Translations under genes and position numbers: made by a program
In this document: piece by piece, positions 3,708-39,654 of the stretch
Position numbering within the stretch: the stretch's first letter is position 1
How the letters are laid out: every line of letters begins with the position of its first letter
From: Prochlorococcus sp. AG-409-D14
GTDB lineage: Bacteria; Cyanobacteriota; Cyanobacteriia; PCC-6307; Cyanobiaceae
Reading direction: 5' to 3'
Length of the DNA: 64,000 bases
Assembly (NCBI GenBank): GCA_003215895.1
Contig: QCJR01000001.1
Span: forward strand, 62,001 to 126,000
Notes under the pieces: generated by a model
The model's input: the letters and a program-made list of their open reading frames with translations, nothing else
Databases searched by the model: none
Told to the model about the DNA's origin: nothing

Positions 3708-3710
3708 TGT

Positions 3711-5238: not shown

Positions 5239-5249
5239 GAATATCTTTT

Positions 5250-5906: not shown

Positions 5907-5930
5907 ATGGTTTAAATTGTATAAAGAAAA

Positions 5931-7364
5931 TTAATAACGATATTGATCTGTCTTGTAGGGGCCTTCAATTGGAACATTAATATATTCAGCTTGTTCTGCT
6001 GTTAACTTTGTTAACTTTGCTCCAATCTTATCTAAATGAAGAATAGCCACCATTTCATCTAAATGTTTTGGCAAAACATAAACTTTATTTAAATATTTAA
6101 CTCCATATTTGAATAATTCAATTTGAGCTAATACTTGATTGGTAAAAGAATTGCTCATAACAAAACTTGGATGGCCGGTAGCGCATCCAAGATTGACTAA
6201 TCTTCCCTCCGCTAAAAGAATTATTTTGTTTCCACTTGGTAAAGTTATATGGTCAACTTGAGGTTTAATATTTTCCCATTCATAAGATTTTAATGAGGAA
6301 ACCTCTATTTCATTATCAAAATGGCCGATATTACAAACTATCGATTCATTCTTCATCCTGATCAAATGCTCATGACGAATAACTTGAAAATTTCCAGTGG
6401 CGGTAACAAAAATATCTACATTTTCAACCACTTCATCTAGTCTAACTACTCTAAAACCCTCCATTGCGGCTTGAAGGGCACATATTGGATCTATCTCAGA
6501 AATCATCACTGAAGCGCCTAAACCCCTTAAAGACTGAGCAGAACCTTTACCAACATCTCCATAGCCCATAACAAGCGCTACCTTGCCCGCAACCATTACA
6601 TCTGTAGCTCTTTTGATGCCATCTACCAAGGATTCTCTGCAACCATAAAGATTGTCAAACTTACTTTTAGTAACAGAATCATTTACGTTAATTGCTGGGA
6701 ATACAAGTTCTCCACTTTTTTCCATTTGGTAAAGACGAGCTACACCAGTTGTTGTCTCCTCAGTAACTCCTTTTAAAAAAGATTTAGCTGTTGAATAAAA
6801 ATTTGGATCTTGCGAAAGTTTCTTCTTGATGGACGCAAATAATGCAATTTCCTCTTCATTAGTGGGATTATCAAGAACTGAAATATCTTCTTCAGCTTTG
6901 CTCCCCAAAACAATCAATCCTGTCGCATCACCACCATCATCAAGAATCATATTTGCTGATTCACCGTCTCCCCATTCAAAAATTTTGTGCGTATACTCCC
7001 AATATTCATCTAATGTTTCACCCTTCTTAGCAAAAACAGGGACTCCTGAATTCGCAATAGCTGCAGCAGCATGATCTTGTGTAGAAAAAATATTACATGA
7101 AGCCCATCTAACTTTTGCACCAAGTGCAACAAGGGTCTCAATAAGAACTCCTGTTTGGATAGTCATATGGAGACTACCTGCTATGTAAGCCCCTTTCAAT
7201 GGTTGTTCGGGTCCATATTTTTTTCTAAGTGCCATTAAACCAGGCATTTCTGTTTCAGCGATCAAAAGTTCTTTTCGACCAAATTCTGCTTCGTTTATAT
7301 CTTTAACTACGTAATCAGGATTCTTCTCAATACTGTTGAGATTTGACTTGGTTGCTGCGAACAT
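5931..7364 (-). CDS. ahcY: S-adenosyl-L-homocysteine hydrolase
   Basis: Splits S-adenosylhomocysteine into adenosine and homocysteine, clearing the inhibitory product of SAM-dependent methylation. The 477-residue length is that of the long bacterial and plant form. Visible motifs: [15 protein letters not shown] near the substrate site, [15 protein letters not shown], the Rossmann NAD loop [16 protein letters not shown] (about 266-281), [11 protein letters not shown] and the C-terminal KTDQYRY with the Lys/Tyr that reach the neighbouring subunit's NAD. The start at 7364 fits the family N-terminus. It is divergent from tsaE with almost no space between the starts. Confidence 0.97.
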
Positions 7365-20826: not shown

Positions 20827-21606
20827 TTAAAGAAGAAAAGGCAATCTTTTACTCTGATAATTAAGCACTCTAATAGTAAAGAAAAGTCCAATAAAATTTA
20901 TACATAAAAGTAGAATAGAAGTTAGATAATTCACAGATCCATCTATTATGCTTAGTCTAATAGGGTCTAAAATTTGATAAATAAAATTTAAATTTGTAAT
21001 CCACTCTAATGAGCCTAAGCTTTCTTTTTGATAGAGTATTGGGGAAGTCAAAAAAACCAATTGCAGCACTATGGGAACTAATTGAGCCATATCTGTAAAT
21101 CTCACACTTATTAGACATACGATTACAGGAAACCAATATATGAAAATAAATAAATTTAAAAATGGAATCCATGAATAGATTAATAAATTACTTAATAATG
21201 AAGACTTCAAAAAAAGAAGCACAAAGAACACTAATATAAATGACTGTATAAAAGTTTGTAATTGGAAAGACCATTCCTCTAAAGTATAAAAAATAGGCTT
21301 AACATTCATATTCTTTATATTCGAAGAATTATGAGCAAAAAGATTAGGAGAATTAGAGATTGAAGAGCTAATTGTATTCCAAAGAACCAATCCAATGCCT
21401 AAATATATAAAATAAGACCTAAAATCTTGAACAGAAAAGACCGTGCCATAGACAATTCCCAAAGCTCCAATCGATAATAAATTTGAAAATCCAAGCCAAA
21501 AACTTCCAAGAGTAGTTCTCGCAAACCTTGCCCTTGATCTTGAGGTGGCTGTATACCACCAAGCTTTCCTTGTTTTAAAAGCAAATTTAAAATTATCCAA
21601 TAACAT
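20827..21606 (-). CDS. Polysaccharide ABC exporter, permease subunit (Wzm-like)
   Basis: Inner-membrane permease of about 259 residues of the ABC-2 type that moves completed, undecaprenyl-linked polysaccharide (O-antigen, capsule) across the membrane. An amphipathic N-terminus with ARFARTTLGSFWLGFSN is the family hallmark (trp-x-x-x-lys-phe-ash-like entry segment before helix 1), followed by about six membrane helices. The ATPase partner lies just upstream and overlaps it. I prefer the ATG at 21606 (MLLDNFKFAF, 14-base overlap); an ATG at 21624 would add six residues. Specificity cannot be read from sequence. Confidence 0.87.
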   Translation of the reverse strand: MLLDNFKFAFKTRKAWWYTATSRSRARFARTTLGSFWLGFSNLLSIGALGIVYGTVFSVQDFRSYFIYLGIGLVLWNTISSSISNSPNLFAHNSSNIKNMNVKPIFYTLEEWSFQLQTFIQSFILVFFVLLFLKSSLLSNLLIYSWIPFLNLFIFIYWFPVIVCLISVRFTDMAQLVPIVLQLVFLTSPILYQKESLGSLEWITNLNFIYQILDPIRLSIIDGSVNYLTSILLLCINFIGLFFTIRVLNYQSKRLPFLL

Positions 21607-22969
21607 TTTTACGATAATAATCATGAGTATGATAGTAATTCAATGCAGCATCTAAAGGACCATCATATGCAATTGATCCATGACTAAAAACAACACCTCT
21701 ATTACAAAATTGTTTTAAAAGCTCCTCAGAATGACTTGCTAAAAATAAAGTTGCCGCAGATTCCATAAATTGCTTCATTCTCTCTTCAGCTCTATCACAA
21801 AAATCTGCATCACCAGTACCAAAACCTTCATCTATTGCTAAACAATCATGAGGACTTGAGGTAAGAATTGAAAAAATTAATCTTGCTGACATACCCTCAC
21901 TATAGGTTTTTATAGGTAAAGAAATGTATGAGCCTAAACCTGAAAACTCAATTATTTCCTCTAAAAAAGATTCAAAACCATCAAGACTATGGTTATTTAG
22001 TAAATAATGGGCCTTACAAGCATCGAGCCCAGATAGTTCTGAACTAGTCAGGAAAGTCTTTTGAAGCATTGGATAAACATCTACTAAGACATTAATATTT
22101 CCACTAGTAGGAATATATATGCCAGAAATTAACCGTAAAAAACTACTTTTACCAGAACCATTATGACCTATAAGGCCAACCCTCTCTCCCTTCATTATGG
22201 TTAAATTAATATTATTTAGAGCAATAATATTTGTTCTATTTTTTGATTGATCTAATGCCCCGCCCGTAATATTAGTTACTTTCTTGGCCAATCTCTTTGT
22301 TAGCGATCTATTTTCTGAATGATAAATAGGAATTGATAGAGATATATCAGTAATTTGAATTGCTGGCTTATTCAACATATTTATTGGAGAACCTGACAAT
22401 GAGCGAATCAGATCTGAAACCATATCTATAGATTGTTTTTCATTATCAACGTTACACAAAAACTGAGTCACTTTGATAAATGATTCGCCAGATATCCAAG
22501 GTGATATTGAATCAGGTTTATATAAATTAATTAAAGTAATACTCTGACTAATTTGTTTAGTAAAAAGTTCTGCAGCCAAAATTTTATTATTTAAGATATG
22601 AAGATCTTTTTTTTCTTGCGTAATATTAATTGAATAAGTTTTTTTCTTCGTAAAGACTAATTCACATATAATATCTGAAATTTGATAATCTTGATTATCT
22701 GCCATTTCAACCCAATAATTCAAAACATCAAAATCAGCTTTTCTATTAAATAAATTTAAATAAACCTTGTTAATCTTAAATTCAAGAGATTTATCTAAAG
22801 CACAAAACTTTGTATACTCATCTTGTCTGGATAATTCATTAGATATATCTTTAATAGTAAGTAATTCTTTAGAGCGTGAAAGCCAATAATTTATTCCTGA
22901 TGGATCACCAGGTCTTCCAAAATAAGCTATATATAATGTTTGTAACTTTTTAGCATCAACATTTATCAT
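21593..22969 (-). CDS. Polysaccharide ABC exporter ATPase (Wzt-like) with N-terminal DUF4214 module
   Basis: Protein of 458 residues with two parts. Residues 9-192 are a DUF4214 module: LYIAYFGRPGDPSGINYW (12-29), a second half LNLFNRKADFDVLNYW (71-86), then a helical segment ending SPWISGESF...RSLSG. Residues 203-445 are a Wzt/KpsT-type ATPase: Walker A GHNGSGKSS (268-276), signature YSEGMSARL (356-364), Walker B CLAIDEGFGTGD (376-387), switch His413. The chain ends soon after, so the C-terminal carbohydrate-binding domain of CBD-type Wzt proteins is absent. The DUF4214 module aligns end to end with the N-terminus of the giant secreted protein at 32765-38116. It sits 25 bases downstream of secA and overlaps the permease. 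Confidence 0.92.
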   Translation of the reverse strand: MINVDAKKLQTLYIAYFGRPGDPSGINYWLSRSKELLTIKDISNELSRQDEYTKFCALDKSLEFKINKVYLNLFNRKADFDVLNYWVEMADNQDYQISDIICELVFTKKKTYSINITQEKKDLHILNNKILAAELFTKQISQSITLINLYKPDSISPWISGESFIKVTQFLCNVDNEKQSIDMVSDLIRSLSGSPINMLNKPAIQITDISLSIPIYHSENRSLTKRLAKKVTNITGGALDQSKNRTNIIALNNINLTIMKGERVGLIGHNGSGKSSFLRLISGIYIPTSGNINVLVDVYPMLQKTFLTSSELSGLDACKAHYLLNNHSLDGFESFLEEIIEFSGLGSYISLPIKTYSEGMSARLIFSILTSSPHDCLAIDEGFGTGDADFCDRAEERMKQFMESAATLFLASHSEELLKQFCNRGVVFSHGSIAYDGPLDAALNYYHTHDYYRKNVIG

Positions 22970-22994: not shown

Positions 22995-25829
22995 TTATGC
23001 CTCTACTTTCTTTTGAGCTGGTTTAAACATAAACATTGAGTAGATTACATTTCTTCTCATATTAATCATCATATCTAAGAACATATCATAGCCCTCATTT
23101 TTATATTCGATCAAAGGATCTTTCTGCCCATAACCTCTTAAACCAACTGATTCTCTTAGTGAATCCATAGATTGCAAGTGCTCTCTCCAAAGATTATCTA
23201 ATTGTTGAAGAATGAAGAATCTCTCGGCTTGCCTCATGATCCCAGGATGTGTTTGCTCTAGTTGAGCTTCTTTAACATCGTAAGCATTTCTCAATTGCTC
23301 TTTTAGAAACTCTTTTAATTCGTTTTTATTCAATCCAAGTACATCTCCAGACTTGAGATCATCCAATAAATAAATAAATTCTTTTACCTTCGACACTAAG
23401 TTGTCCAAATCCCATTCTTCTGGAGGTAAATCTTCGTTGACATATGCTTCAACTATCTCTTCCATAGTTCTTTGGCCATAACCAATAACTTGAAGTTTTA
23501 ACTCTTTACCTTCTAAGACCCTTCTTCTTTCTGAGTAAACTGCTTTTCTCTGGTTATTCATTACTTCATCATATTCAAATATTTGTTTTCTAATATCGTA
23601 ATAATAAGTTTCTACTTTTTTTTGAGCACCTTCTAAAGACCTTGTAAGCATTCCAGACTCAATGGGCATATCTTCCTCCACACGAAACGCATTCATAAGT
23701 CCAGCGACTCTATCTCCTCCAAAAATGCGAAGAAGATTATCTTCCAAGGACAAAAAGAAACGCGTGCTCCCTAAATCACCTTGGCGTCCAGCCCTACCTC
23801 TTAACTGGTTATCAACCCTCCTAGACTCATGACGTTCAGTGCCAATTACATGCAGACCTCCAGCCTCGCGGACTTGTTTCTCTTCAATAGTTAAGACGTC
23901 TTCATACTCATTTTTTATTAGCTGAATTGCATTCCTTAATTCCATAATATTCTTATCTTTAGTAGGTGTTTTTTCAGCGGCAGTCGCAATATAGTCATCA
24001 AGTTCAATTGAACTTAAGGCTCTATCTCCCCATTCTTTTACCAATTTAGAAGACAAAGAAACGAGTTTTTTTTCGGTATCCTCAGTTAATAAAACAGGGA
24101 ATATTTTTTTTAAAGATTCAGATTGACTTGTTTTTGAACTCTTAGGACTCTCATTTTTATCTTCTTTAAATCCCTCTGTCTGCTTATTTCGTTGTAGCGG
24201 GATAGGAGGCTTATGACCTTCTTCAGGTTTTACCAAACGAGAACTGAGAATTTCTTTGATTTTCAATCTAGCCATATAGTCACTGTTACCTCCAAGAATA
24301 ATATCCGTTCCTCTTCCAGCCATATTAGTGGCGATCGTTACAGCTCCAGATCTTCCTGCTTGAGCAACTATTTCAGCTTCTCTCTCAACATTTTCAGGTT
24401 TTGCATTTAATAAATTATGAGGCACTTGCTGTTCTGATAAGAGGGTACTTAGCAACTCACTCTTTTCCACACTGGTAGTTCCAACAAGAACTGGTCTTCC
24501 TTGTTGATGAATTGCAGCCGTCTCTTTTGCAACTGCTCTCCATTTAGCGTTTTCAGTTTTAAAAACTTGGTCAACCCAATCCTCTCTAGAAATCTTTCTA
24601 TTAGTCGGAACAACAGTCGTCTCTAATTTATAAGTTTTTTCAAACTCAACTTCTTCAGTTTTTGCAGTTCCAGTCATGCCAGACAATCTTGGATAAAGAA
24701 GAAAGAAATTCTGATAAGTAATTGAAGCCAAAGTTTGCGTCTCCGGCTGAATGGGTAAATTTTCTTTAGCTTCAATTGCTTGATGTTGTCCATCACTCCA
24801 ACGCCTCCCTGGCATAACTCTGCCTGTAAATTCATCAACAATTACTGCTTCCTTGTCACGAATAATGTAATTAACATCTTTAACAAAAAGTTCTTTAGCC
24901 TTTAAAGCATTTGTTATGTAGTGTGCCCAAGGATCTTTTGGATCAAATAGATCTTTAACGCTTAGAAGCTGTTCGGTTTTGGCAAAGCCTTCATCAGTAA
25001 GGATACAACTCCTTTGTTTCTCATCCACCTCATAGTCACCCTCAGGATCAATTCCATCCTTGCTCGTTTCAAGGGCTCTTTGTAACTTACCTACAACTGA
25101 CGCAGCTTGTTGGTATTTTTCTTGTGGACGTTCAACCTGCCCAGAGATAATTAAAGGGGTTCTAGCTTCATCAATCAAAATAGAATCGACTTCATCTATC
25201 ACACAAAATTGGAAGCCTCTTTGAACAATTTCAGCATTATCTGCCGCCATATTATCTCGCAAATAATCAAAACCTAATTCTGAATTAGTCGCGTAGGTAA
25301 CATCACATAAATAATTTTTCCTTCTCATCTGTGGTGTCATGTCTTGCTGTATCAAACCAACCGAAAGTCCTAGAAAACGATGAACTTGTCCCATCCACTC
25401 TGCATCTCTTCTGGCTAAATAATCATTTACAGTCACAACATGAACCCCTCTACCAAGCAAAGCATTTAAGTAACTTGGCAAGGTTGCTACCAGTGTCTTC
25501 CCTTCTCCTGTTTTCATTTCCGCAATTTGACCTTCATGCAAGACCATTCCACCAATCAGTTGAACATCAAAATGTCTCATTCCAAGAACCCTTTTTGCCG
25601 CTTCCCTAACAACAGCAAAAGCCTCTGGCAGGATTTCATCGAGAAGGATAAGTTTATCTTTCTCTTTGCTAGATTTTTCTAACTTTTCTCTGAATTCATT
25701 TGTTTTGTTTTTTAGATCCTGATCGGTTAGAGCTGCTATTTGTTCCTCTAAAAGATTGATATCAGTTACTATGGGTTGGAATCTTTTAAGTTTTCTATTA
25801 TTAGGATCACCAAGTAGGTTGCGAAGCAT
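22995..25829 (-). CDS. secA: Preprotein translocase ATPase SecA
   Basis: Motor that drives preproteins through SecYEG at the plasma and thylakoid membranes. 944 residues: NBD1 with [14 protein letters not shown] and the [12 protein letters not shown] Walker B, preprotein cross-linking domain, NBD2 ([29 protein letters not shown]), helical scaffold and wing domains. A charged insertion of about 60 residues ([20 protein letters not shown] and around) follows GGNSDYMAR, as in other cyanobacteria. The chain ends [11 protein letters not shown] without the zinc-binding Cys tail. On the same strand the Wzt/Wzm genes follow closely, probably in one transcript. Confidence 0.97.
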
Positions 25830-26134
25830 TTATAATTTTTATAGCCTCACTAAGTATAGCTCAATCACCTCGAATTAACTGATCAAGGCGTGTTATTCTG
25901 GAAATTAGATATTTACATTTTAAAAATCCTTTAGGAAAATATTTAATTTAAAAATTATCTTATTTCACTGATTAAGCAATGTATTCTCAACTAAATATTA
26001 TATATAAACTTTAAGGTTTATCATATAAGTAATTATTAAACAATACTCTCAACGAAAAAGCATTGGCTTAAAAAATAATCAATTTGATATTCGATTCAGC
26101 AGTGAAGTACAATATCAAGATAGTTGTAATTACT

Positions 26135-27175
26135 ATGAGTAAAAATAAAATTGCTCTCATTACTGGGATTACTGGTCAAGATGGAAGTTATCTAGCAGAG
26201 TTACTTCTTGAAAAAGATTATATAGTCCATGGCATAGTTCGCAGATCAAGCAATGAGAATACCAACAGAATTGAACATTTACTTAAGAAAAACGAAAATC
26301 AAAGTCTCTTTTTACATTATGGAGATCTAACTCATAGTACAAATATTCTAAGAATAATTAAAGAAACATTACCTGATGAAATTTATAATTTAGGAGCACA
26401 GAGTCATGTCAAGGTTAGTTTTGACTCTCCTGAATATACAGCACAAACAGATGCACTCGGACCCTTAAGAATACTGGAAGCGGTAAGGATTTTAAATCTC
26501 ACAAAGAAAACAAAAATATATCAAGCCAGTACTTCAGAACTTTATGGACTTATACAAGAGTCTCCTCAATCAGAGCTAACTCCTTTTTACCCAAGAAGTC
26601 CATATGGAGTAGCAAAATTATATGCCTATTGGATCACGGTAAATTATCGAGAATCCTATGGAATGTATGCATGTAATGGAATACTTTTTAATCATGAATC
26701 TCCAAGAAGAGGTGAAACTTTTGTCACAAGAAAAATAACCAGGGGATTAACAAGAATTGCTGCTGGTGTACAAGACTGTTTGTATATGGGAAATATAAAC
26801 TCACTCAGAGATTGGGGGCACGCAAAGGATTACGTTGAGATGCAATGGAGAATGCTTCAGCAAGAAAAGCCTGAAGATTATGTGATTGCATCTGGACAAA
26901 TGACATCTGTTCGAAAATTCATCGAAATGTCTGCTAAAGAACTAAATTGGGGAGGAATTGCTTGGGAGGGAGAAGGTATTAATGAGATTGGGAAAAGAAA
27001 AGACAATGGAAAAATTGTTATAAGAATTAATCCTGAATTTTTTAGACCAGCTGAGGTTGAGTCTCTGCTAGGCAATGCTGAGAAAGCAAGAAAACAGCTA
27101 GGGTGGCAACCAACCACTTCAATTGAACAACTAGTCAAAGAAATGATAGAAAAAGATATGGAATTAGCGAAATAA
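26135..27175 (+). CDS. gmd: GDP-mannose 4,6-dehydratase
   Basis: Converts GDP-D-mannose to GDP-4-keto-6-deoxymannose, precursor of GDP-fucose, GDP-rhamnose or GDP-perosamine. The short-chain dehydrogenase fold has the NADP loop [15 protein letters not shown], the catalytic Ser/Thr-Glu (ASTSELYGL) and Tyr-x3-Lys ([12 protein letters not shown]), and the GMD-specific [18 protein letters not shown] use the ATG at 26135 ([11 protein letters not shown], 346 residues); the in-frame ATG at 26084 adds 17 residues without similarity to the family. About 250 bases of AT-rich DNA separate it from the divergent secA. No epimerase/reductase (Fcl) or perosamine synthase is in the window. Confidence 0.94.
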
Positions 27176-27591: not shown

Positions 27592-27615
27592 AATCGAAAT
27601 ATATCGATTTTTTTT
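27592..27615 (+). terminator. Second terminator-like hairpin immediately before the secretion operon
   Basis: Six-base arms AATCGA (27592-27597) and TCGATT (27604-27609) with a 6-base loop are followed by a run of T to 27615, four bases before the ATG at 27620. The stem is short and AT-rich, so efficiency as a terminator is uncertain; it could be an attenuator or control ribosome access, since no Shine-Dalgarno sequence is visible there. Confidence 0.45.
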
Positions 27616-27619
27616 GTTA

Positions 27620-28369
27620 ATGGATTCACTTAAATGCCTTTCAGCTGAATGTGTGAATTTATTACACAAAAATAACCTTCTTCATTCTTTAGTAAAAGCA
27701 GAATTAAAAAGTTCAATATTATCAGAAATACAAGTTGATAAAGAGACTGAATCCAAAGCAATCCAACGTTTAAAAAATAAATTTAAAATAACTAATGAAA
27801 GCGAATTGGATCAATTTCTTATTCAGAATGGACTAGATAAGAAAGAGTTTATTAATTTAGCGGTGTTTCCATTTCGTGCTAAAAAATATTCCTCAGAAAA
27901 ATTTAATAACAAATCAAAAGCTAGATTTCTTGAACGAAAAAACCAACTAGATATAGTGATTTATAGCCTTTTGAGAACTTCTGATACTAATTTATGTAGA
28001 GAGCTATACCTCAAGATAAACGAAAAAGAAGTTGATTTTGGAGAAATTGCTTCACAATATTCAGAAGGTATTGAGAAAAAAACAAGAGGAATTGTAGGGC
28101 CAATCCCTCTTGAAAAAACGCATCCATTTTTAGCAGAGCACTTACGAACGAGTAAGATAGGAGAAGTTACTCAACCTTTTAAACTTGATAATTATTATTT
28201 AATCACAAGATTAGAATCCTATGATCCTGTACAACTGGATAGTTATATGAAAGATAAAATGTGTGAAGAACTTTTCGAATTATGGCTGAATCAAAAATCA
28301 ATAAGTATTTTGAATGAGCTAATTACTCCACTTAAGTCAAAAATTAAGTCTTCAGGAGAAATATCATGA
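27620..28369 (+). CDS. Parvulin-type peptidyl-prolyl isomerase of the type I secretion operon
   Basis: Protein of 249 residues. The N-terminal half (about 1-105) is helical and charged, like the chaperone part of PrsA/SurA proteins. The C-terminal half (about 108-203) is a parvulin rotamase domain: FGEIASQYSEGIEKKTRGIVG, then FLAEHLRTSKIGEVTQPF and YYLITRLES. There is no signal peptide, so it should act in the cytoplasm, perhaps holding the exported substrate before secretion. The ATG at 27620 is preferred over a TTG two codons upstream that lies in a T-run. Its stop overlaps the ABC transporter start by 4 bases. Confidence 0.83.
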   Translation: MDSLKCLSAECVNLLHKNNLLHSLVKAELKSSILSEIQVDKETESKAIQRLKNKFKITNESELDQFLIQNGLDKKEFINLAVFPFRAKKYSSEKFNNKSKARFLERKNQLDIVIYSLLRTSDTNLCRELYLKINEKEVDFGEIASQYSEGIEKKTRGIVGPIPLEKTHPFLAEHLRTSKIGEVTQPFKLDNYYLITRLESYDPVQLDSYMKDKMCEELFELWLNQKSISILNELITPLKSKIKSSGEIS

Positions 28370-31308
28370 CTAGCTCAAATTACAAATTAAACATAAGATC
28401 AATTCAATGTTTCAATAAAATAAGCAACTCAATATTAAATTCGATTGAAAAAGAGTCAAAGATAATTAAATACAAAATAGGAGATTCAATCACTCAAAGA
28501 GATATTATACCTAATAAGATTTTTTTAATATTATCTGGAGAAGTAAGGTTAACGACTAACACATCAACAAATACGAAAACTATAACTAAGCTCACGTCAG
28601 GATCATTTATAGGGTTAGCATCATTATTAAGAGCGAATCCATGTGAATCAACATCTGCCACGAATGATGTTTTAGTATTATCTTTACCAGATGACTTGAT
28701 ACTAAATATATTTGAAACTGATTTACACTTTAGAAATTGGTGCAACACAACTATTCAACCAATTGAAACCTATGAATTATTTAAAATTTTATTTGATAAA
28801 AACGAGCAAAAAAACTTTAACAGTATAAAAAATCAATTAAATAATTCACTATCTGTTGAAGTTGTTAATAATGGAGAAATCATAAAAACCAATAAAGACA
28901 CTTTAACAATAATTGGTAGTAGTAATTTAATGAATACAAATATAGGAGATATATCCTCTGGAAATCAAAAGGCGAATATACAAGGTCTTTTACCGGCAAG
29001 GATTTTCTCTATAAATAAAGATGCTTACAATAATTTATCTAGTCAAGAGAAAGAAGAACCAGAAAATAATTCATCTAAAGTATCGAATATTGAGATAGCT
29101 GATCAAAACATTGTCTTGAGTAATAGTTCTCTACCAATAGGTCAATATGAGCCCAAAAAAGAATTAAAGTTTATTAAAGCAAATGGCATAGTTAGAGAAT
29201 CATTAGCATGTTTACAAATGTTAGCGAACGAACTGGACTTGCCTTATAGATCAGATGCTATTGAGAAAATAATAAGAGATTTAATTAAAGATAATAAAAA
29301 GCCTTCGATTATGACTATGGGAAATATAACAACAACAATGGGTTTACATACATCAATAGCAAAAATACAACCTTCACTTGGTGGTAGGTTGCCATATCCC
29401 TCGATTATTTCATGGGGTAATTCTTTTGCATTAGTTAAAAAAAGTAATGCTGACTGTCTTGAAATCGCCTCTCCAAGTGAAGGTATTATAAAGATCAAAT
29501 TAGAAGACCTAAACAATAAATTTGAGAAAGGATTTATAGAGTTTTTAAATATAGAAAAATCGGATGCAACTCCTGAAATTAAGTTTGGATTTCAATGGCT
29601 ACTGCCTGCTATTAATCGCCATCGTAACGTACTCATTCAAGTTTTAATTGCATCATTTGTTGTTCAACTTTTTGGGCTCGCTAATCCACTCATGCTGCAA
29701 GTAATCATTGATAAAGTGATTAGTCAAAGGAGCCTAGATACTCTGCAAATTCTTGGAATAGCGCTAATTGTTATTACTCTTCTTGGTGGACTAATTAGCA
29801 GTCTTAGAACTTTTTTATTCAACGAAACTACCAATAGAATAGATACTAGACTAGGTGCAGAAGTCATTGATCATTTACTTCGTTTACCATTAAAATATTT
29901 TGATAATAGGCCCGTTGGAGAGTTAGGAACCAGAATTGCAGAATTAGAAAAAATAAGAAATTTTTTAACAGGTCAAGCACTTACCACGATTCTAGATGCT
30001 GCATTTTCACTTATTTATATAGTAGTCATGGTCTTCTATAGTTGGCTATTAACACTAATTGCTTTAGGTGTTGTCCCAATACAAATATTGATAACCATAG
30101 TTGGAACACCTCTACTAAGGAGACAAATACGCGAGATAGCTCAAGAAAACGCCTCAACTCAAAGTCATCTTGTTGAAGTACTTACAGGAATACAAACTGT
30201 TAAAGCTCAAAATGTAGAGAGAGTAAGCCGCTGGAAGTGGCAAGAATTATATAGTAAATACATTTCAAAATCATTTCAAAAAACAATTACTGGAACTGCA
30301 TTAGGTGAAACGAGTCAAGTTCTTCAAAAACTCTCTCAGCTTCTTGTCTTGTGGGTAGGTGCTTCTTTAGTATTAAAGGGTCAGCTTAGCTTGGGACAGT
30401 TAATAGCATTCAGAATAATTTCTGGGTATGTAACACAACCCCTTTTGAGATTAAGTTCTATTTGGCAAAACATTCAAGAATTGAGAGTTTCATTTGAAAG
30501 GTTGGCTGATATCGTAGACACTCCAGAAGAAACATCCGAGAAAGATAGAGCCAAAATACCACTTCCCAGTATTAAAGGAGATATAATTTTTGAGGATGTT
30601 TGTTTTAATTTCCGACGTACAGATCCATTCGTTCTTAGAGGAATTAATTTATCTATAAATCAAGGACAATTTGTTGGAATAGTTGGTCAAAGTGGTAGTG
30701 GAAAAAGTACTTTAGTTAAACTTATACCAAGGTTATACAATCCAAATTCAGGTCGAATATTTATCGATGGATACGATGTTGATAAAGTAGAGCTTTCCTC
30801 TCTTAGAAGACAAGTTGGGATAGTGCCTCAAGAGCCACTTTTATTTAAAGGGAGCATAAGCGAAAATATAGCTCTTACAGACCCAGAAGCTCCAAGTGAT
30901 CAAATAGTGAGAGCCGCAAAAATAGCAAATGCGCACGAATTCATAATGGAACTGAGTGATGGATACAGCACAATTATCGGAGAAAGAGGTGCTGGTCTTT
31001 CGGGAGGTCAAAAACAAAGAATAGCTATAGCAAGAACACTGCTGAATAATCCAAAATTATTAATAATGGACGAAGCAACAAGCGCTCTAGATTACTTAAC
31101 TGAAAGAAATGTCTGTGATGGCATTAAAGAATCATGCCTCAACTCCACTGTACTTTTTATTACTCATCGCTTAAGTACAGTAAGAAACGCAGATATAATA
31201 TTAATGCTCCATCAGGGTAAAATTGAAGAGTTAGGCACACATGAAGAATTAATGGCTAAAAAAGGTAGATATTATGCTTTATTCCTTCAGCAAGAGTCAT
31301 CTTCATAA
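28366..31308 (+). CDS. Type I secretion ABC transporter with N-terminal cNMP-binding-like and inactive C39 domains
   Basis: Inner-membrane exporter ATPase of 980 residues. Order: cyclic-nucleotide-binding-like domain (about 10-130; NKIFLILSGEVRL, GSFIGLASLLRAN), an acidic linker, a C39-peptidase-like domain (about 270-390) without catalytic Cys and His, six-helix ABC membrane domain (about 415-710) and nucleotide-binding domain (737-975) with Walker A GQSGSGKST (774-782), LSGGQ (879-883) and LLIMDEATSALD. As in HlyB, the dead C39 domain probably binds unfolded RTX substrate. Its likely cargo is the giant protein encoded just beyond the adaptor gene. Whether the N-terminal domain binds cAMP is unknown. 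Confidence 0.92.
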   Translation: MTSSNYKLNIRSIQCFNKISNSILNSIEKESKIIKYKIGDSITQRDIIPNKIFLILSGEVRLTTNTSTNTKTITKLTSGSFIGLASLLRANPCESTSATNDVLVLSLPDDLILNIFETDLHFRNWCNTTIQPIETYELFKILFDKNEQKNFNSIKNQLNNSLSVEVVNNGEIIKTNKDTLTIIGSSNLMNTNIGDISSGNQKANIQGLLPARIFSINKDAYNNLSSQEKEEPENNSSKVSNIEIADQNIVLSNSSLPIGQYEPKKELKFIKANGIVRESLACLQMLANELDLPYRSDAIEKIIRDLIKDNKKPSIMTMGNITTTMGLHTSIAKIQPSLGGRLPYPSIISWGNSFALVKKSNADCLEIASPSEGIIKIKLEDLNNKFEKGFIEFLNIEKSDATPEIKFGFQWLLPAINRHRNVLIQVLIASFVVQLFGLANPLMLQVIIDKVISQRSLDTLQILGIALIVITLLGGLISSLRTFLFNETTNRIDTRLGAEVIDHLLRLPLKYFDNRPVGELGTRIAELEKIRNFLTGQALTTILDAAFSLIYIVVMVFYSWLLTLIALGVVPIQILITIVGTPLLRRQIREIAQENASTQSHLVEVLTGIQTVKAQNVERVSRWKWQELYSKYISKSFQKTITGTALGETSQVLQKLSQLLVLWVGASLVLKGQLSLGQLIAFRIISGYVTQPLLRLSSIWQNIQELRVSFERLADIVDTPEETSEKDRAKIPLPSIKGDIIFEDVCFNFRRTDPFVLRGINLSINQGQFVGIVGQSGSGKSTLVKLIPRLYNPNSGRIFIDGYDVDKVELSSLRRQVGIVPQEPLLFKGSISENIALTDPEAPSDQIVRAAKIANAHEFIMELSDGYSTIIGERGAGLSGGQKQRIAIARTLLNNPKLLIMDEATSALDYLTERNVCDGIKESCLNSTVLFITHRLSTVRNADIILMLHQGKIEELGTHEELMAKKGRYYALFLQQESSS

Positions 31309-31313: not shown

Positions 31314-32483
31314 ATGAAAAGAAATATACACTCAACTATTAAAAACTTAAGTAAGGGCTCGCTGAAGAAGTTTCAGAAGATTATCTTGAATAAAAAAGAG
31401 ATTATCACCCAAATTAATCAAAGAAAAAACCAACTTTTACAACTGAACAAGAAAATTGATCTCAATACAATCAGTAATAAATTTGAAGAAATTTTAAAAG
31501 AAAAACTATTTTTAAAAAGCCTACAACCTTCAATATGGGTGCAATTTGCCCAAGATAAAGTCAATAATATCTTCGAAGGTGAAAATAATCTAGTTTTTCT
31601 TCGTCAATCTCGGTTCTGGTTTAATGCAATTTCATGGACATTAATAGGTACTGCAGGATTCGGTATAGCATGGATTTCTATTGCAAAAACAGAGGAAATT
31701 GTAATAGCTACAGGAAAACTGGAACCAAAAGGTGGTGTAATTGAAGTTCAAATGCCTTTGGAGGGTGTGACTAGGAAGGTGCTTATAAAAGAAGGAGATA
31801 TCGTCGAGAAAGGAGAAATATTAATACAATTGGATACTGATATTACTGATGCAAAAAATATTGCACTTCAAAATAATTTAGAACTGAACGAGAACATCGC
31901 AAGCAAATTAAAAGTTTTAGCAAAAGAAGGTGCAGTATCAGAATTACAATACCTCCAGCAATTAGCAAAGATAGAAGATATCAAAAGTGAAATCAAAACT
32001 AATGACGTCAGATTAAAATATCAAGAGATAAAAGCACCCTCAAAAGGGAAAATATTTGACCTACAGCCCAAAGGCCCTGGATTTGTAGCAAGAAGTTCAG
32101 AACCAGTTCTAAAAATTGTACCTATGAGTAATTTAATAGCAAAGATCGAAATACAAAGCAGAAATATTGGCTTCGTAAGTGTCAATCAAAAAGCTGACAT
32201 TAGTATAGATTCATTCCCTGCGAGTGATTTTGGAGTAGTAAAAGGGAGTCTTATCAGTATTGCATCCGATGCCTTACCACCAGACCCATCAATGGGAAAG
32301 AATTACAGGTTTCCAGCTAAAATAAAATTAGATACTCAATACCTAAAACTAAAATCAGGGAAGAAACTACCCTTACAAGCAGGCATGAGTCTTAGCGCAA
32401 ATATAAAGCTTAGGAAGGTAACTTATTTACAATTGCTTCTGAATAAATTTACTGATAGAGCAGAATCATTAAAAGCAATTTGA
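31314..32483 (+). CDS. Type I secretion membrane-fusion protein (HlyD family)
   Basis: Periplasmic adaptor of 389 residues linking the ABC exporter to an outer-membrane TolC-like channel. It has an unusually long cytoplasmic N-terminus (about 1-100, basic and helical), one membrane segment (about 104-124), lipoyl half-motifs (about 140-175 and 236-268; IEVQMPLEGVTRKVLIKEGD, YQEIKAPSKGKIFDL) and a beta-barrel domain. The hairpin between the lipoyl halves is only about 55 residues, much shorter than in HlyD. It begins 5 bases after the ABC gene. No TolC homologue lies in the window. Confidence 0.9.
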   Translation: MKRNIHSTIKNLSKGSLKKFQKIILNKKEIITQINQRKNQLLQLNKKIDLNTISNKFEEILKEKLFLKSLQPSIWVQFAQDKVNNIFEGENNLVFLRQSRFWFNAISWTLIGTAGFGIAWISIAKTEEIVIATGKLEPKGGVIEVQMPLEGVTRKVLIKEGDIVEKGEILIQLDTDITDAKNIALQNNLELNENIASKLKVLAKEGAVSELQYLQQLAKIEDIKSEIKTNDVRLKYQEIKAPSKGKIFDLQPKGPGFVARSSEPVLKIVPMSNLIAKIEIQSRNIGFVSVNQKADISIDSFPASDFGVVKGSLISIASDALPPDPSMGKNYRFPAKIKLDTQYLKLKSGKKLPLQAGMSLSANIKLRKVTYLQLLLNKFTDRAESLKAI

Positions 32484-32764: not shown

Positions 32765-35700
32765 TTATGCGAAGTCTGAGAAGCTTGCACTAGTGAAGTC
32801 TTCGGACTCAGCAGCAGTAAAGTGAGCAATAAGTGTAACGTTAGCGGCATCAATAGTTGTGTCAGTACCACCAGTAACTTGAGCAAGTGTCGTGTTACCT
32901 GCAGCCCCTTCAACTAGTACGTATGCAACGTCTGCTGCTGATCCAACGGTAACTGTGTGGTTATCAGTACCATTACCAGAACCATCTAGGTCACCTAAGA
33001 AGGTAGCAATTTCTGCAGCAGTTAGATAACTTCCTGCGTCAATAGCCGTTGTTGATGATCCGGCGAATACTGTCAATCCATCGATTATGGCATGGTCGTC
33101 TGTGTTAGCGAATAACAAGAAGCCATCTACATCCAAGTCGGTGTTTGCAGCATCGTTTACGTCTCTTGTTCCAGTGAAGTCAATAATGTCAGTTCCAGCA
33201 GTGAAACTACCAATAGTGTCTATACCTTCTCCACCGTAAGCAAGGGCAAATGTATCTGTACCACCACCAAAGGTAAGAGTGTCATTACCTCCTCCAGCAG
33301 TAACAGTACCACCACCTGCTCCAGTAGTAATTGTATCTGCTTCACTACCTGTAGTAATAGTGTCAGCTCCAGATCCACCTGTAATTGTCCAGATGATATC
33401 ACCGTCGGCGATTGTACTTGCAGCTGTTGCAGCAGCATTAACGTCAATTTGCCAGTCAAGAGTGGTAACAAGATTATCAGCGTTGCCGTTAATAATCATT
33501 CGACTATTTGTAGTGTCGTAGATCACCTGACCAATAGATCCAGAAAGATTGGCCTGAACTTCTGAGGTGCCTGCACGAGCTGTTTGAACAGTACAGTCAT
33601 ATGTTGCAGCGCCAGTATCTGTGGAGTTATTAATCGTGACATTGAACTTATCAGTACCTGATGTGAAGTCAGTAATTGAGTCACGAGCAGATCCTGTTGA
33701 TTGACCAACAGCTGTGTAAGTGAAAGTATCAGCTCCCGCACCACCAGTAATAGTGTCTCCACCAAGACCACCATCTATGACGTCAGCTCCAGCTCCAGCT
33801 GAAATCGTATCACCTGTAGCTGTTGTAGCTGTACCAGTAACAGTATCAACTCCACCACCACCTGAGTAAGTAATGGTGCCATCATTTTCTGCACTTGCAT
33901 CAAGTGTGAAAGCATCACCAGTATTAGCTTCAGCATTAATTGTCAATACTCCACTAACAGTGTTGTTATCACTCAAAGTAAGACTACCAACATGGTTACC
34001 ACCGGTTTTAATGGTTTCTATTTTGGTTACTCCAGACATGTCTGAAGCTGAAACAGTATCTATAGAAGTTTCATCGTCAAAGGTAATTGTCAAGATATCT
34101 GAGCCAGTACCACCAGTTAAGGTATCTCCAGATGTGAGATTGTCTTCAGCGATAGTGAAGGTTATAGCAGCACCTGAAGCTTCGGCAGTAACTGTGTCAT
34201 TACCTGATGAAAGAGCAATGGTTGCTGCTGAAGTTACACCAGCTCCCAAAGTTATGCTGTCAGCTCCAGTACCATCGTTAATAGTAGCTATAGAAGATTC
34301 TTCAAATTCGCTACCGAGAACTAAAGTTGTTGCTGTATTTGAAAAAGTAAGTACATCAAAGTTAGTTACGCCTGTGAAATCCGCGTCAGATAGAGTACCG
34401 CCATCGCTCAAGGTGATTGTATCGGTTCCAGATACACCGTTGATTGTGTCTGCTGAAGTTAACTGAGCAACTGCAATCGTAACGCCGTCAGTACCGCTTC
34501 CTCCTGTAATGGTATCTCCCATTGAGGAAGCAGAAGCTGTGATCGTATTACCACCATGACCACCAAGGATGGTTACTGCGCCGTTGGTTTCGGCGGACAT
34601 TGTAATGGTAGAAACAGTAGTAGCATTTATTGTTGCATCGATAGTTAACGACTTAGTAGCTGCTACGACTGCATCAACAATAGTTACTGAGTTTGCAGCA
34701 TCTCCATCAACAAACTTGATTGTTTCAAAACCAGTTACATTATTTAGTGCTGTAGCAGCAGTAGCAGATGAATCGTAATCAATTTCTAATACGTCACTGG
34801 TTCCAGTACCTGCAGTAATTGTGTCACCACTGGTTAGGTCATTGGAGTCAACATTGACTGTTAATGCAGCAGTCATGGATGACGCATCAATGGTATCTGT
34901 ACCAGCAAGAAGATTCACCTTCTGTGCTGTGGTAACTGAATCAAGATTCAGATCATTAGTAACAGAAGCTGCAAGATTAATTGTTGAGAAACCAGCAGCG
35001 GTGTACTCAGCACCAAGATCGGTATCAGAAGAAGCTATAGAGGTGAAAGTTAGCGTCTCCATGTTGGAAACATTCGTGAAATCAGCATCTGCAAGTGTTG
35101 CAGCTGTGGTGATGATCGAAAGAATGTCTGTACCAGCTCCACCATCGATGGTGTCTAAAGTAGTTAATTGAGCTGCTACGACGCTGACTGTATCTGCACC
35201 TGCATAAGTATTAATAGTATCTCCAAGATCACTAAGACTAGCGGTGATAGCGTCTCCACCTGTAGCTCCATGAACTGTGATTATTCCATCTGCCTCAGTA
35301 CCTGCAGAGAAGGTTAAACCGTTTGCAGCACTTACTATTGCGCGACCATCAACTAATAGTGTTTTTCCATCTGCAACGGTTCCGTTGTCGATAGTTATGT
35401 TCGCAGCTGCGTCGTTAGTAATAGTGAACTTCTCTATCGCAGTAACACTTGCTAACTGAGCTGCAGTGTAGGTGTCACCAACAAGTTTAAGTTCGTCAGC
35501 TGTACCTGTACCACCGGTCAATGTTGAAGTAACGCCTGTATCAGCGTTAATCGCAGTATCAACACCAGCAACAAGGGTTAAAACACCGGTATAGGTAGAT
35601 GCATCGATCGTGTTTGTATCAGCAGCAACAGCAGCATCAAGGTTAACGGTTATTGCGTTTGTGACATCGTTTTGAATTGTGACTGTGTCAGCAACACCAC

Positions 35701-38116
35701 CATTAGCTGTACCAGCAAGAGTAACGGTTGTTATACCCATTGCTTGCGCATAGGTATCTAAGGTTGCAGATAAACCAGTTGCATCAGATGTAATTACTTC
35801 AATCGATGTGTTGTTCTCGAGTTGAGAGTCGGCTACAGCTGATAAATCATCAAGTTTAAGAGTATCAGTACCATCTCCACCATCTAAAACGTGGAATGAA
35901 GCAAGGTTTGTATCAGTTCCATAGAAAGTGTCATTTCCTGCTCCACCACTAATGGTGTCTTTAACAGTAGTTAATGCAGCAGCTGTAAGCGTGAAGGTAT
36001 CGTTACCAGCTCCACCATTAATAGTGTCTGACGCAGCACCACCAGTAATTGCATCGTCACCAGCTCCACCAGTAAGTGTTGAAGCGTGAGAGTCACCAAG
36101 AATTGTATCGTTACCAGAACCACCGGTAATGGTTGTTGCTCCAGCAGTAGCAGCATCCATGACTAGATTTCCAGTCAAACCAGAAGCATCAATTGTTCCT
36201 GTACCGGAGCCATCAGTACCAACTGTAATTACACCGCTTGCATGGAAATTACCTTTACCGGAAATATTTAGTGTTGCTGCAGTTCTGAGACCATCCGAGT
36301 CTGGATCTCCAGTTACGTTAAAAGTAGAGACATCCTGCTCAGTGGTTGTAGTACCTGTACCTGTACTGAAGTTAACTGTCTCGAAGCCATTAACAGCTAC
36401 AGAGTTGTTATTAAAAGAATCAACCGTAGAGGAGTTAATAGTAAGAGTGTCAGTAGTTGCTAAACCAGTATCAGTAACTGTTAGAGCACCAGCACTTGCT
36501 GTACCCATTTTCAGAGTATTACTACCAGCACCGAAAACAACTGTTCCAGCATTTGCTCCAGCCGTAAGTGTGACTGAACTAATTGTTGAATCAATATTTG
36601 CTGTAGTAAGCGATGTTGCTAATACAGTGGATGCTTCAATAACTTCAATGTTAGAGACGTTATTAGCTGTTGTAAGTCCTGCAAGTTCACCATCATCACC
36701 TACCAAAGTATCTGTTCCAGCTCCACCATTAACGATGTCTGCATCAGCTAAGTCAGCACCGAAGATAAGTCTGTCGTCACCTGAGCCACCAGAAAGTGTA
36801 TCGATTGAAGATGCAGCTCCTTCTGATGTAAGTGCGTCATTACCTGAACCACCAGTAATAGTTACAGCACCAGCAGTGCCAGCCAACGTATTATCTGAAG
36901 CTAGTGTTATTGCTCCAGTAGCAGAACCAGCGTTAATAGTAGTGGTCTGATTGAGAATTGTTGAAGCAACACCAAGAGTCAAATCTGCACTACCAGAAAT
37001 ATTCAATGTAGTTGCATCACTATCCAACCTTACAGAGTTAGCTGAAGTTGAAGAGGTTAAATTAACTGTTTCAACAGCACCAGTAATAGTTGTAATTACT
37101 GTATTACCACCAGTTGCATTGGCTAGCTCTAAATCAATACTGTCAGCAGTACCGGTAAGAGCAGCAGCTTTATATGTGAAAGTTGCGCCTTGATCATTAT
37201 CCGCAACCTTAAGGTCTGCAGTTGCATCACCGATATTTGAGATAGTTCCAAGAGCTATAGAACCGGAGTTAGTGTACTTAGTAACACCAGTAATATTTAC
37301 TGCACTAACTGTCTTAGCGGCTTCAAAAGTAAGGTTTATATTCTCAACATTCTTGATAGAAAGTGGAATTACAGTTGTTGCTATTGACGCATTAAGAGTG
37401 TCAGTTCCACCTTTACCATCAATTTCATCAAGAGAATTAAGTGTGTTTGCACCAGATGAAGTCAGGCCAGCACTTATCTTATTAGTACCTGCAGTTCCAG
37501 CAATATCATCTACGTTTGAAGTGAGTGAGTAGTTGGCTGATTCAGAAGGAACTCCATTACCAGTAATAGTAGTAACACTTGCAGCGATACCAGCGGCAGT
37601 ACTAGCTGTATCTTTATTAATACCGGACATATAAGAAACAGCTTCAGCAATATTTACACCAGACTTCCAAGGACTTGTTGACTCAGCTTGATAAGCAAGA
37701 ATTGCTGAAGCGTCTTCTTTTACTTTCGCTGTGTAAGCTATTGCAGCGTCTGTTTTATTACTAAGAGCAGTTTTGTCATCTTCGCTACCTGCATTGTTCT
37801 TAGCCGCCCAGATTAGATGAGTCGCGATTTCAGCGAGCTGAAGATTACCTAAATCAATTTCTTGGGTCCAATAAAGCAAACCAGTTGCATCAGCAGCTCT
37901 ATCGAAAAGATTTTCATAGATCTGATTGACTTGGGATTCAGTTGAAAGACTGCCGTAAACATCTTTAAATTCAGCCTGCGCATACATGTCTGCGGCGAAC
38001 TTAGATGTAGTTATCCCTTTCTTCGTCCAGTAATCAAGACCTGCGGGATCAGCGGCGCGCCCAAAATAAGCAACGTAGAGCTCTTGAAGTTGTGTGCTAG
38101 TCGCGTTATCAGCCAT
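32765..38116 (-). CDS. Giant RTX/S-layer-like secreted protein with N-terminal DUF4214
   Basis: Protein of 1783 residues without a signal peptide. Residues 10-186 hold DUF4214 (LYVAYFGRAADPAGLDYW at 13-30; second half ENLFDRAADATGLLYW at 68-83) and a helical segment. The rest is Ala/Thr/Gly/Ser/Asp-rich beta structure with many Ca2+-binding RTX-type turns (GGSGNDTILG 665, GGAGNDTFTL 701, GGAGADTF 1458), a 230-280-residue repeat and a C-terminus (SEDFTSASFSDFA) fitting an uncleaved type I secretion signal. Only one cysteine (1508). The layout and motifs recall Caulobacter RsaA, suggesting an S-layer or giant adhesin exported by the convergent T1SS. G+C is about 45%, far above its neighbours, driven by amino-acid content. 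Confidence 0.87.
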   Translation of the reverse strand: MADNATSTQLQELYVAYFGRAADPAGLDYWTKKGITTSKFAADMYAQAEFKDVYGSLSTESQVNQIYENLFDRAADATGLLYWTQEIDLGNLQLAEIATHLIWAAKNNAGSEDDKTALSNKTDAAIAYTAKVKEDASAILAYQAESTSPWKSGVNIAEAVSYMSGINKDTASTAAGIAASVTTITGNGVPSESANYSLTSNVDDIAGTAGTNKISAGLTSSGANTLNSLDEIDGKGGTDTLNASIATTVIPLSIKNVENINLTFEAAKTVSAVNITGVTKYTNSGSIALGTISNIGDATADLKVADNDQGATFTYKAAALTGTADSIDLELANATGGNTVITTITGAVETVNLTSSTSANSVRLDSDATTLNISGSADLTLGVASTILNQTTTINAGSATGAITLASDNTLAGTAGAVTITGGSGNDALTSEGAASSIDTLSGGSGDDRLIFGADLADADIVNGGAGTDTLVGDDGELAGLTTANNVSNIEVIEASTVLATSLTTANIDSTISSVTLTAGANAGTVVFGAGSNTLKMGTASAGALTVTDTGLATTDTLTINSSTVDSFNNNSVAVNGFETVNFSTGTGTTTTEQDVSTFNVTGDPDSDGLRTAATLNISGKGNFHASGVITVGTDGSGTGTIDASGLTGNLVMDAATAGATTITGGSGNDTILGDSHASTLTGGAGDDAITGGAASDTINGGAGNDTFTLTAAALTTVKDTISGGAGNDTFYGTDTNLASFHVLDGGDGTDTLKLDDLSAVADSQLENNTSIEVITSDATGLSATLDTYAQAMGITTVTLAGTANGGVADTVTIQNDVTNAITVNLDAAVAADTNTIDASTYTGVLTLVAGVDTAINADTGVTSTLTGGTGTADELKLVGDTYTAAQLASVTAIEKFTITNDAAANITIDNGTVADGKTLLVDGRAIVSAANGLTFSAGTEADGIITVHGATGGDAITASLSDLGDTINTYAGADTVSVVAAQLTTLDTIDGGAGTDILSIITTAATLADADFTNVSNMETLTFTSIASSDTDLGAEYTAAGFSTINLAASVTNDLNLDSVTTAQKVNLLAGTDTIDASSMTAALTVNVDSNDLTSGDTITAGTGTSDVLEIDYDSSATAATALNNVTGFETIKFVDGDAANSVTIVDAVVAATKSLTIDATINATTVSTITMSAETNGAVTILGGHGGNTITASASSMGDTITGGSGTDGVTIAVAQLTSADTINGVSGTDTITLSDGGTLSDADFTGVTNFDVLTFSNTATTLVLGSEFEESSIATINDGTGADSITLGAGVTSAATIALSSGNDTVTAEASGAAITFTIAEDNLTSGDTLTGGTGSDILTITFDDETSIDTVSASDMSGVTKIETIKTGGNHVGSLTLSDNNTVSGVLTINAEANTGDAFTLDASAENDGTITYSGGGGVDTVTGTATTATGDTISAGAGADVIDGGLGGDTITGGAGADTFTYTAVGQSTGSARDSITDFTSGTDKFNVTINNSTDTGAATYDCTVQTARAGTSEVQANLSGSIGQVIYDTTNSRMIINGNADNLVTTLDWQIDVNAAATAASTIADGDIIWTITGGSGADTITTGSEADTITTGAGGGTVTAGGGNDTLTFGGGTDTFALAYGGEGIDTIGSFTAGTDIIDFTGTRDVNDAANTDLDVDGFLLFANTDDHAIIDGLTVFAGSSTTAIDAGSYLTAAEIATFLGDLDGSGNGTDNHTVTVGSAADVAYVLVEGAAGNTTLAQVTGGTDTTIDAANVTLIAHFTAAESEDFTSASFSDFA
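33853..37429 (-). repeat. Five long degenerate protein repeats in the giant protein
   Basis: A recurring block starts with an RTX-like D-x-I-x-G-G-x-G-T-D-T-L turn, is followed about 15-30 residues later by an (N/G)-V/T-x-N-(I/M/F)-E-x-(I/L)-T-F strand, then beta segments. Turn positions: 230, 459, 742, 987 and 1222, i.e. spacings of about 229, 283, 245 and 235 residues. The last two units are closest to each other (TSGDTITAGTG at 1095 and TSGDTLTGGTG at 1328; GGDAITAS at 953 and GGNTITAS at 1188). DNA identity between units is low, so this is old duplication. Confidence 0.75.
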
Positions 38117-38679: not shown

Positions 38680-39654
38680 TTGGCCAACAAAAGATCTCTA
38701 ATACTTGGCTGCAGTGGACAAGATGGTGCCCTCCTAAGCCTTTCGCTTCTAAAACAGAACTATGACGTTATTGGCACATCAAGGAAACTAAAAACAAATA
38801 AATTACAGAAAATAACTAATCATTCGATTCTGGGCATTGATAAAGACATTAGATTAGTAAATTGTGATATTACAAATTCCGATGAGATTTCTAATTTAAT
38901 TGAGAAATATAAACCAAATGAAATTTACAATTTAGCAGCACAGTCGTCAGTCGGTAAATCCTACGAATATCCTCAAGAAACCATAAAAAGTATTGTTGAC
39001 GTTACTATTAACCTGCTAGAAGTATGCAGAGAGATAAACTATAATGGAAACTTATTTTTTGCTGGAAGCAGCGAAGTTTTTGGAAACACCAAAAGAAAAG
39101 CAAATATAAACAAAAAACAAAGGCCGGTAAGCCCTTATGGAATTGCGAAACAAACCAGTTTTAACTTGGTTAAATTATACAGAAATTTGCACAATCTAAA
39201 ATGCGTTACAGGAGTATTGTTTAACCATGAATCACCACTAAGAAGCGAAAAATTTGTAACTCAAAAGATAATTACCGAAGCTTTGTTATGTAGAAAAAAT
39301 AAATCACATAAATTAAGAATAGGCAACATAAATATTGCGAGAGACTGGGGCTGGGCAGAAGAATTTGTAGAGGGGTTTCAAGTAATGAACAGAACTAAAA
39401 ATTTAAAAGATCAGATAATATGTACTGGAAAATCAACAAAATTAAAAACATTTATTAAAATAGTGTTTAAAAAACTGAATCTTAATTGGAGAAATCATAT
39501 TTTTGTAGATTCAGAATTTTTCCGAAAAGATGAAATAAAGCAAAGCTATGGAGATCCCAAACAAATGAAAAATGATTTAGATTGGAAGGCAAAAGTTGAA
39601 TTAGAAACGATAATTGAAAGACTCATTGAATTTAAATTAAATTCTCAAAAGTAG
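38680..39654 (+). CDS. GDP-mannose 4,6-dehydratase-like sugar-nucleotide enzyme (divergent paralog)
   Basis: NAD(P)-dependent short-chain dehydrogenase of 324 residues. It has the nucleotide loop GCSGQDGALLSLSLL, catalytic Ser-Ser-Glu (AGSSEVFGN), Tyr-x3-Lys (SPYGIAKQTSF) and the GMD signature in altered form (FNHESPLRSEKFVTQKI). It is shorter and clearly diverged from the gmd at 26135, so it may act on the same substrate or have become a reductase/epimerase for the product. Start is TTG at 38680 (an ATG is not available nearby). The end overlaps the convergent glycosyltransferase gene by 23 bases. Very AT-rich. Confidence 0.83.
   Translation: MANKRSLILGCSGQDGALLSLSLLKQNYDVIGTSRKLKTNKLQKITNHSILGIDKDIRLVNCDITNSDEISNLIEKYKPNEIYNLAAQSSVGKSYEYPQETIKSIVDVTINLLEVCREINYNGNLFFAGSSEVFGNTKRKANINKKQRPVSPYGIAKQTSFNLVKLYRNLHNLKCVTGVLFNHESPLRSEKFVTQKIITEALLCRKNKSHKLRIGNINIARDWGWAEEFVEGFQVMNRTKNLKDQIICTGKSTKLKTFIKIVFKKLNLNWRNHIFVDSEFFRKDEIKQSYGDPKQMKNDLDWKAKVELETIIERLIEFKLNSQK

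Follow-up and report, generated by a model that had tools for sequence, protein, structure and literature searches.

Two kinds of Wzt ATPase are the closest described counterparts of the exporter examined here. Galactan-type Wzt, exemplified by RfbE of Klebsiella O2a, has no carbohydrate-binding domain (CBD) and no other accessory module, and its export is not known to require the reading of a cap. CBD-type Wzt (E. coli O8/O9a, Aquifex aeolicus, and Raoultella O12) forms with Wzm an exporter of lipid-linked O-antigen and ends in a jelly-roll domain, Wzt_C; this sugar-binding domain is required to export capped chains and helps to pick up or load the chain (PMC9445017). On the cell surface, the RTX S-layer protein RsaA of Caulobacter, a type I secretion substrate, is anchored via an N-terminal domain that binds O-antigen (PMC6978808). 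A further domain, DUF4214, is treated in the openly available literature as a surface or S-layer domain: the accessible text on SFB calls it a likely surface-anchoring domain (PMC12780176), and the DUF4214 proteins of SFB, Dechloromonas, and Halomonas are described there as secreted or surface-located (PMC12780176, PMC11970703). The same openly accessible DUF4214 literature, as far as it was searched, mentions no glycan exporter carrying DUF4214.

Here, we describe such an exporter in a 64,000-nucleotide window (the whole stretch of DNA analyzed) from Prochlorococcus sp. AG-409-D14, where a Wzt without Wzt_C begins with the same kind of DUF4214 module as a giant RTX protein encoded in the same locus (Table 1). 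The open reading frame at 21593-22969 (minus strand) encodes Wzt as a single uninterrupted protein of 458 aa. The ATPase part is closest to the galactan type, matching PDB chains 9qfx/9qhw of RfbE at E 1e-44 and scoring 188 bits against NF050108, below the 400-bit equivalog cut-off. By this ATPase part, of the Wzt/RfbE/TagH group, and by the overlapping wzm permease gene, the protein is a Wzt. A domain search at E up to 1 detected no Wzt_C, and the ATPase part ends at residue 449 of 458, leaving just nine residues after it; the first-pass annotation was therefore right that no room is left for a C-terminal carbohydrate-binding domain. The protein thus lacks the defining feature of CBD-type Wzt, which it nonetheless resembles as part of a Wzm/Wzt exporter with an extra, possibly glycan-binding, domain and in having a methyltransferase gene within its locus. 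Unlike Wzt_C, the extra domain here is N-terminal and all-helical, and its glycan binding is putative; unlike RfbE, the Prochlorococcus Wzt has an accessory module at all.

Table 1. Features of the wzt-giant locus, in window coordinates.
Feature	Coordinates	Strand	Evidence
wzm, ABC-2 permease partner, overlaps wzt downstream	20827..21624	-	PF01061, NF050109
Wzt nucleotide-binding domain, residues 204-449, galactan/RfbE type, without Wzt_C	21623..22360	-	NF050108 E 1.3e-55, PDB RfbE, PF00005
Wzt N-terminal DUF4214-type module, residues 1-195	22385..22969	-	BLASTP E 8e-32, hhalign E 1.7e-52, Pfam DUF4214, AF2 pLDDT 91
secA, conserved bystander inside the locus	22995..25829	-	Position conserved in 12 genomes
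gmd, GDP-mannose 4,6-dehydratase	26084..27175	+	TIGR01472 552.8 bits, above cut-off
Peptidyl-prolyl isomerase of the PpiC type, adjoining the T1SS genes	27614..28369	+	PF00639; position conserved in 12 genomes
HlyB-type T1SS ABC exporter; cNMP-binding and C39-like domains at the N-terminus	28366..31308	+	TIGR01846 E 1e-211 (just under cut-off), PF00664, PF00005, PF00027, PF03412
T1SS HlyD adaptor	31314..32483	+	PF13437, TIGR01843
1783-aa giant RTX protein, predicted to leave the cell by type I secretion	32765..38116	-	HemolysinCabind (PF00353) x7, DUF4214, adjacent T1SS genes
Giant N-terminal DUF4214-type module, residues 1-192	37541..38116	-	BLASTP, hhalign, Pfam DUF4214, AF2
Second GMD-like SDR, possible GDP-6-deoxy sugar enzyme	38680..39654	+	PF16363; TIGR01472 below cut-off
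1220-aa multi-domain glycosyltransferase	39632..43294	-	PF00534, three stretches
Methyltransferase, candidate glycan-modifying enzyme	43297..44511	-	PF08241, PF13489; PDB 3dli; homolog near giant in 15 genomes

The two N-terminal modules are homologous, as the first-pass annotation had proposed. In a single BLASTP comparison they share 29% identity and 55% positives over 196 columns, and a profile of 25 Wzt modules aligns with one of 14 secreted modules over 186 columns at a probability of 100% (hhalign). Both pass the gathering score of Pfam DUF4214 (PF13946; cut-off 23.2 bits), with 25.1 bits for Wzt and 49.3 bits for the giant, and so belong to the same family as the surface proteins of SFB, Dechloromonas, and Halomonas. 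AlphaFold2 models of 22379-22969 (Wzt module; the input alignment included secreted rows) and 37541-38116 (giant module; pLDDT 94) each have 11 helices in identical order, the comparison being one of helix order. Since the wzt frame is continuous in 30 genomes, the fusion is real and not a sequencing or frame artefact.

Within the genus, the fusion is present in 30 of 41 Prochlorococcus genomes, including 16 of the 17 that are at least 90% complete, and each of those 16 also encodes a secreted long-module protein; a fusion in a genome devoid of secreted DUF4214 proteins, which had been named beforehand as counting against a shared use of the module, was not encountered among them. The other 11 genomes of the genus, most of them incomplete, were queried with the ATPase part alone and gave no match in 10 cases and one match cut by a contig end. 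The latter, from G021, was the sole in-genus candidate for a module-less Wzt and was rejected because of this truncation. Each of the 30 Wzt genes of the genus with a visible N-terminus retains the module.

Outside the genus, about 25 other genera of the family have an orthologous ATPase without the module, 44-57% identical and mostly in open frames of 255-305 aa; of the longer frames, two were read, one encoding 375 aa that begin with an unrelated stretch and the other 268 aa. As these module-less orthologs show, export as such does not depend on the module. No DUF4214-Wzt fusion was found among 400 family genomes and 386 phylum genomes outside the genus, and a scan of 84,980 species with one peptide pattern, which could miss diverged fusions, gave none outside Prochlorococcus contigs among the 80 matches listed. 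One Prochlorococcus fusion contig is filed under a Pelagibacter bin: NZIO01000065.1 (L094, L109), filed as Candidatus Pelagibacter MED605, holds a Prochlorococcus wzt fusion together with a giant and appears to be misbinned. A contig filed as Bifidobacterium breve (L161) likewise looks misfiled.

The fusion most likely happened once, because 25 of 26 Wzt modules group together in the module tree on a single branch (SH-aLRT 95); the 26th, from G003, sits on a very long branch. The Wzt module is derived from the secreted modules of the clade, and of the 47 columns conserved in secreted modules it retains 31 in at least 24 of 30 Wzt proteins, among them GR-DP-G--YW and N-LF-R--D. It evolves more rapidly than the ATPase part (mean distances of 0.50 and 0.25, respectively). 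Among close pairs, the module has a dN/dS of ~0.2-0.35, compared with 0.04-0.11 in the ATPase part, values that place the module under purifying selection and not in decay. This upkeep bears on the idea that the fusion is a chance domain shuffle, kept for some minor structural reason and with a role linked to neither the giant nor a glycan. Module mobility in the genus is high, as such a shuffle would have it, but the retention of the module in every visible in-genus Wzt N-terminus, the purifying selection, and the conserved motif residues leave this explanation very improbable.

The genes around the fusion are conserved as a block. Twelve genomes share the order cysE-wzm-wzt-secA-gmd-ppiC-hlyB-hlyD-giant, and in most of the 12 whose fetched DNA extends that far, the SDR and 1220-aa glycosyltransferase genes follow; a homolog of the methyltransferase adjoins the SDR and glycosyltransferase genes in 15 genomes. 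With PF00353 in seven stretches and HlyB and HlyD genes adjacent in 12 genomes, the giant falls into the RTX, type I secreted class. The T1SS exporter with its cyclic-nucleotide-binding and C39-like domains, preceded by the PpiC-type isomerase, is itself a conserved arrangement in the 12 genomes. The methyltransferase was considered as a chain terminator of the WbdD type, and we do not claim this reading, since the PDB search yielded only an unnamed methyltransferase.

The 17th genome that is at least 90% complete (G030, 95% complete) is informative in another way, as its glycan and exporter genes and its giant have gone together. There (L240:823-5912, G030:C12), wzt, wzm, gmd, and the methyltransferase gene persist as pseudogene remnants with stops or deletions beside an intact secA and cysE, and the giant was not found in this genome; the block for glycan export and the giant protein has been lost as a whole in the G030 lineage.

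Several other cyanobacteria encode a secreted protein with the long type of DUF4214 close to a Wzt, for example at a distance of 1 kb (G315), 6 kb (G502), 10 kb (G207), 13 kb (G077), 24 kb (G110), or 28 kb (G101). Under one search rule, and in only 11 genomes with few contigs, a DUF4214 protein was found within 30 kb of Wzt in 6, against 0.57 expected (P 3e-6, or 5e-5 with one of two congeners dropped), P values that serve as guides because the genomes are not independent samples. Several of these Wzt proteins carry canonical Wzt_C. G207 has the order cysE-wzm-wzt(CBD)-methyltransferase-glycosyltransferase-DUF4214 protein, at the same cysE site as in Prochlorococcus; in Tianweitania, a Wzt_C-type Wzt lies ~4 kb from a secreted DUF4214 protein; and a glycan locus of genus g87 combines a Wzt_C-type Wzt with a secreted DUF4214 protein and with a cytoplasmic-looking fusion of DUF4214 to an FkbM methyltransferase, the fusion lying 6.5 kb from the secreted protein. 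With this fusion, the module appears a second time on an intracellular glycan protein, now in a distant lineage. DUF4214 surface proteins are thus systematically associated with Wzm/Wzt glycan loci both inside the genus, as a conserved locus, and outside it. DUF4214-FkbM fusions were observed at L174:5691-6875 (G672) and L177:13169-14362 (G613), in a glycan cluster and close to a secreted DUF4214 protein.

The Wzt-linked contexts and the DUF4214-FkbM fusion support a link to glycans, and the factor common to them is, we think, the polysaccharide exported by Wzm/Wzt, to which the module would bind. The reading that we favor, and to which we give an even chance, is that the N-terminal module of Wzt is a glycan-binding module taken from secreted surface proteins and placed on a CBD-less Wzt, so that both copies hold the same polysaccharide. 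In the cytoplasm, the Wzt module would bind the lipid-linked polysaccharide that the enzymes encoded by the neighboring gmd, SDR, glycosyltransferase, and methyltransferase genes assemble, and would assist in loading the chain into Wzm/Wzt, standing in for the C-terminal CBD of other Wzt proteins. Outside the cell, the N-terminal module of the giant would bind the completed polysaccharide at the outer membrane and thereby keep the giant attached to the cell, much as the N-terminal domain of RsaA is fixed by O-antigen, a comparison made by analogy only. Three steps of this best guess are inferred: that either module binds glycan, that the Wzt module loads or gates export, and that the giant is anchored.

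What the shared ligand could be is constrained by a mirror-tree comparison of distance matrices across 24 strains, a test for a shared variable ligand. Distances between Wzt modules track those of the ATPase part (r 0.96) and wzm (r 0.93) and show no co-variation with the giant module (r 0.12, p 0.18). The giant module, in turn, does not correlate with the ATPase or wzm (r 0.07) and is better correlated with gmd (r 0.42). Giants whose modules are 40-90% identical to the window's pair with vertically inherited Wzt modules; giants have been swapped between strains while the Wzt module stayed unchanged. The first-pass annotation had envisaged a glycan-recognition module used twice, and this idea divides: the shared module, the missing CBD, and the linkage of DUF4214 to Wzm/Wzt loci speak for it, whereas its strong form, in which both modules read the same strain-specific glycan, is not supported, given the lack of co-variation. 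If the modules share a ligand, it is most likely a conserved portion of the glycan, such as its backbone or end, and not a strain-specific epitope.

A related explanation keeps the strain-specific glycan and makes binding by Wzt a checkpoint that releases only chains competent to hold the surface layer. It draws on the same points as our favored reading and on the need of CBD-type Wzt for its sugar-binding domain in capped-chain export (PMC9445017), but the two modules should then change together when giants are swapped, which is not what is observed, and Wzt orthologs with neither CBD nor module are common; we hold a checkpoint to be improbable. In another explanation, the module links Wzt to a glycan-building enzyme, either the 1220-aa glycosyltransferase or the methyltransferase; growing chains would be handed directly to the exporter, and the module itself would read no sugar. 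The genes concerned are adjacent and conserved, and glycosyltransferase distances correlate with those of the Wzt module (r 0.33), though with those of the ATPase too (r 0.26). Such a link leaves unexplained why numerous extracellular proteins, which never come into contact with these enzymes, bear the same module, and it seems to us quite unlikely.

The most substantial competitor to glycan binding is protein docking, in which the Wzt module would contact the giant's module, DUF4214 to DUF4214, or the T1SS, in the cytoplasm or at the inner membrane, and thereby couple the place or time of glycan export and giant secretion. The first-pass annotation had set docking aside on the grounds that one protein is cytoplasmic and the other extracellular; this dismissal is weak, because the giant is synthesized in the cytoplasm, where the two modules could meet. 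The adjacency of the wzt and giant genes and their joint loss in G030 fit docking, and so does the nearest solved fold in Foldseek, which for both modules is the phycobilisome linker domain (PF00427), a protein-binding domain, albeit at weak E values of 0.2-0.5 and TM of 0.33-0.48 (probability 0.99 and 0.91). Against docking, the two modules fail to co-vary, with diverse giants beside vertically inherited Wzt modules, and DUF4214 on an FkbM methyltransferase fits a glycan ligand better. We consider docking unlikely. A distant common origin of the DUF4214 module and the phycobilisome linker domain is possible, judging from the modeled folds.

The fold match and the lack of co-variation count against glycan binding as we favor it, as do the module-less Wzt orthologs and the comparison with RsaA. 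The giant resembles RsaA as an RTX surface protein with type I secretion and a candidate N-terminal anchor; unlike in Prochlorococcus, no anchor module is known on a Caulobacter exporter, and homology between the anchors was not detected. The N-terminal domain of RsaA (PF19198) was tried as a homolog and rejected, since its motif is similar (TYQFFTGVAPSAAGLDFLV) but its profile scores (hhalign E 0.098 and 0.24) lie within the range of shuffled or unrelated controls. PF19198 matched neither module at E 10, was absent from the Foldseek matches listed, and was not found in the 212 genomes searched, mostly proteobacterial. A PDB sequence search with both module profiles returned nothing real.

Bacterial surface proteins widely carry DUF4214, for which no ligand is known. 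The conserved exporter fusion, the FkbM fusion, and the Wzm/Wzt linkage together nominate a testable one, the exported polysaccharide; in our favored reading, this polysaccharide is the putative ligand and any glycan binding by DUF4214 is predicted. If true, the module would be a new kind of Wzt accessory domain and would explain how abundant marine Prochlorococcus cells retain a giant secreted protein. A broader version is tentative and, in our estimate, rather doubtful: the exporter would have swapped the usual C-terminal sugar-reading domain for the surface layer's own anchor, with the same type of module checking or loading the glycan and later tying the layer to it, and DUF4214 would be a general O-antigen-binding module of surface proteins.

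Nearly all other carriers of the module that we inspected look secreted (RTX, cadherin-like, and protease proteins), and no relative was found in viral contigs. Both the long module and C-terminal DUF4214 domains occur on many secreted proteins of the genus. On L047 (G000:C3), neighboring genes at 323-3118 and 3587-6214 encode secreted proteases, metalloprotease-like and trypsin-like, with an apparently identical C-terminal ~300 aa that contains the long module, which points to a recent exchange or duplication that put one anchor on two unlike enzymes. A second DUF4214 type, of ~100 aa, occupies the extreme C-terminus of many unrelated secreted proteins (proteases, RCC1-like, RTX, and cadherin-like) in genomes of the genus (L037, L038, L039, L043, L046, L053, L055, and L056), with 18 matches in one genome, and looks like a common sorting or anchoring tail.
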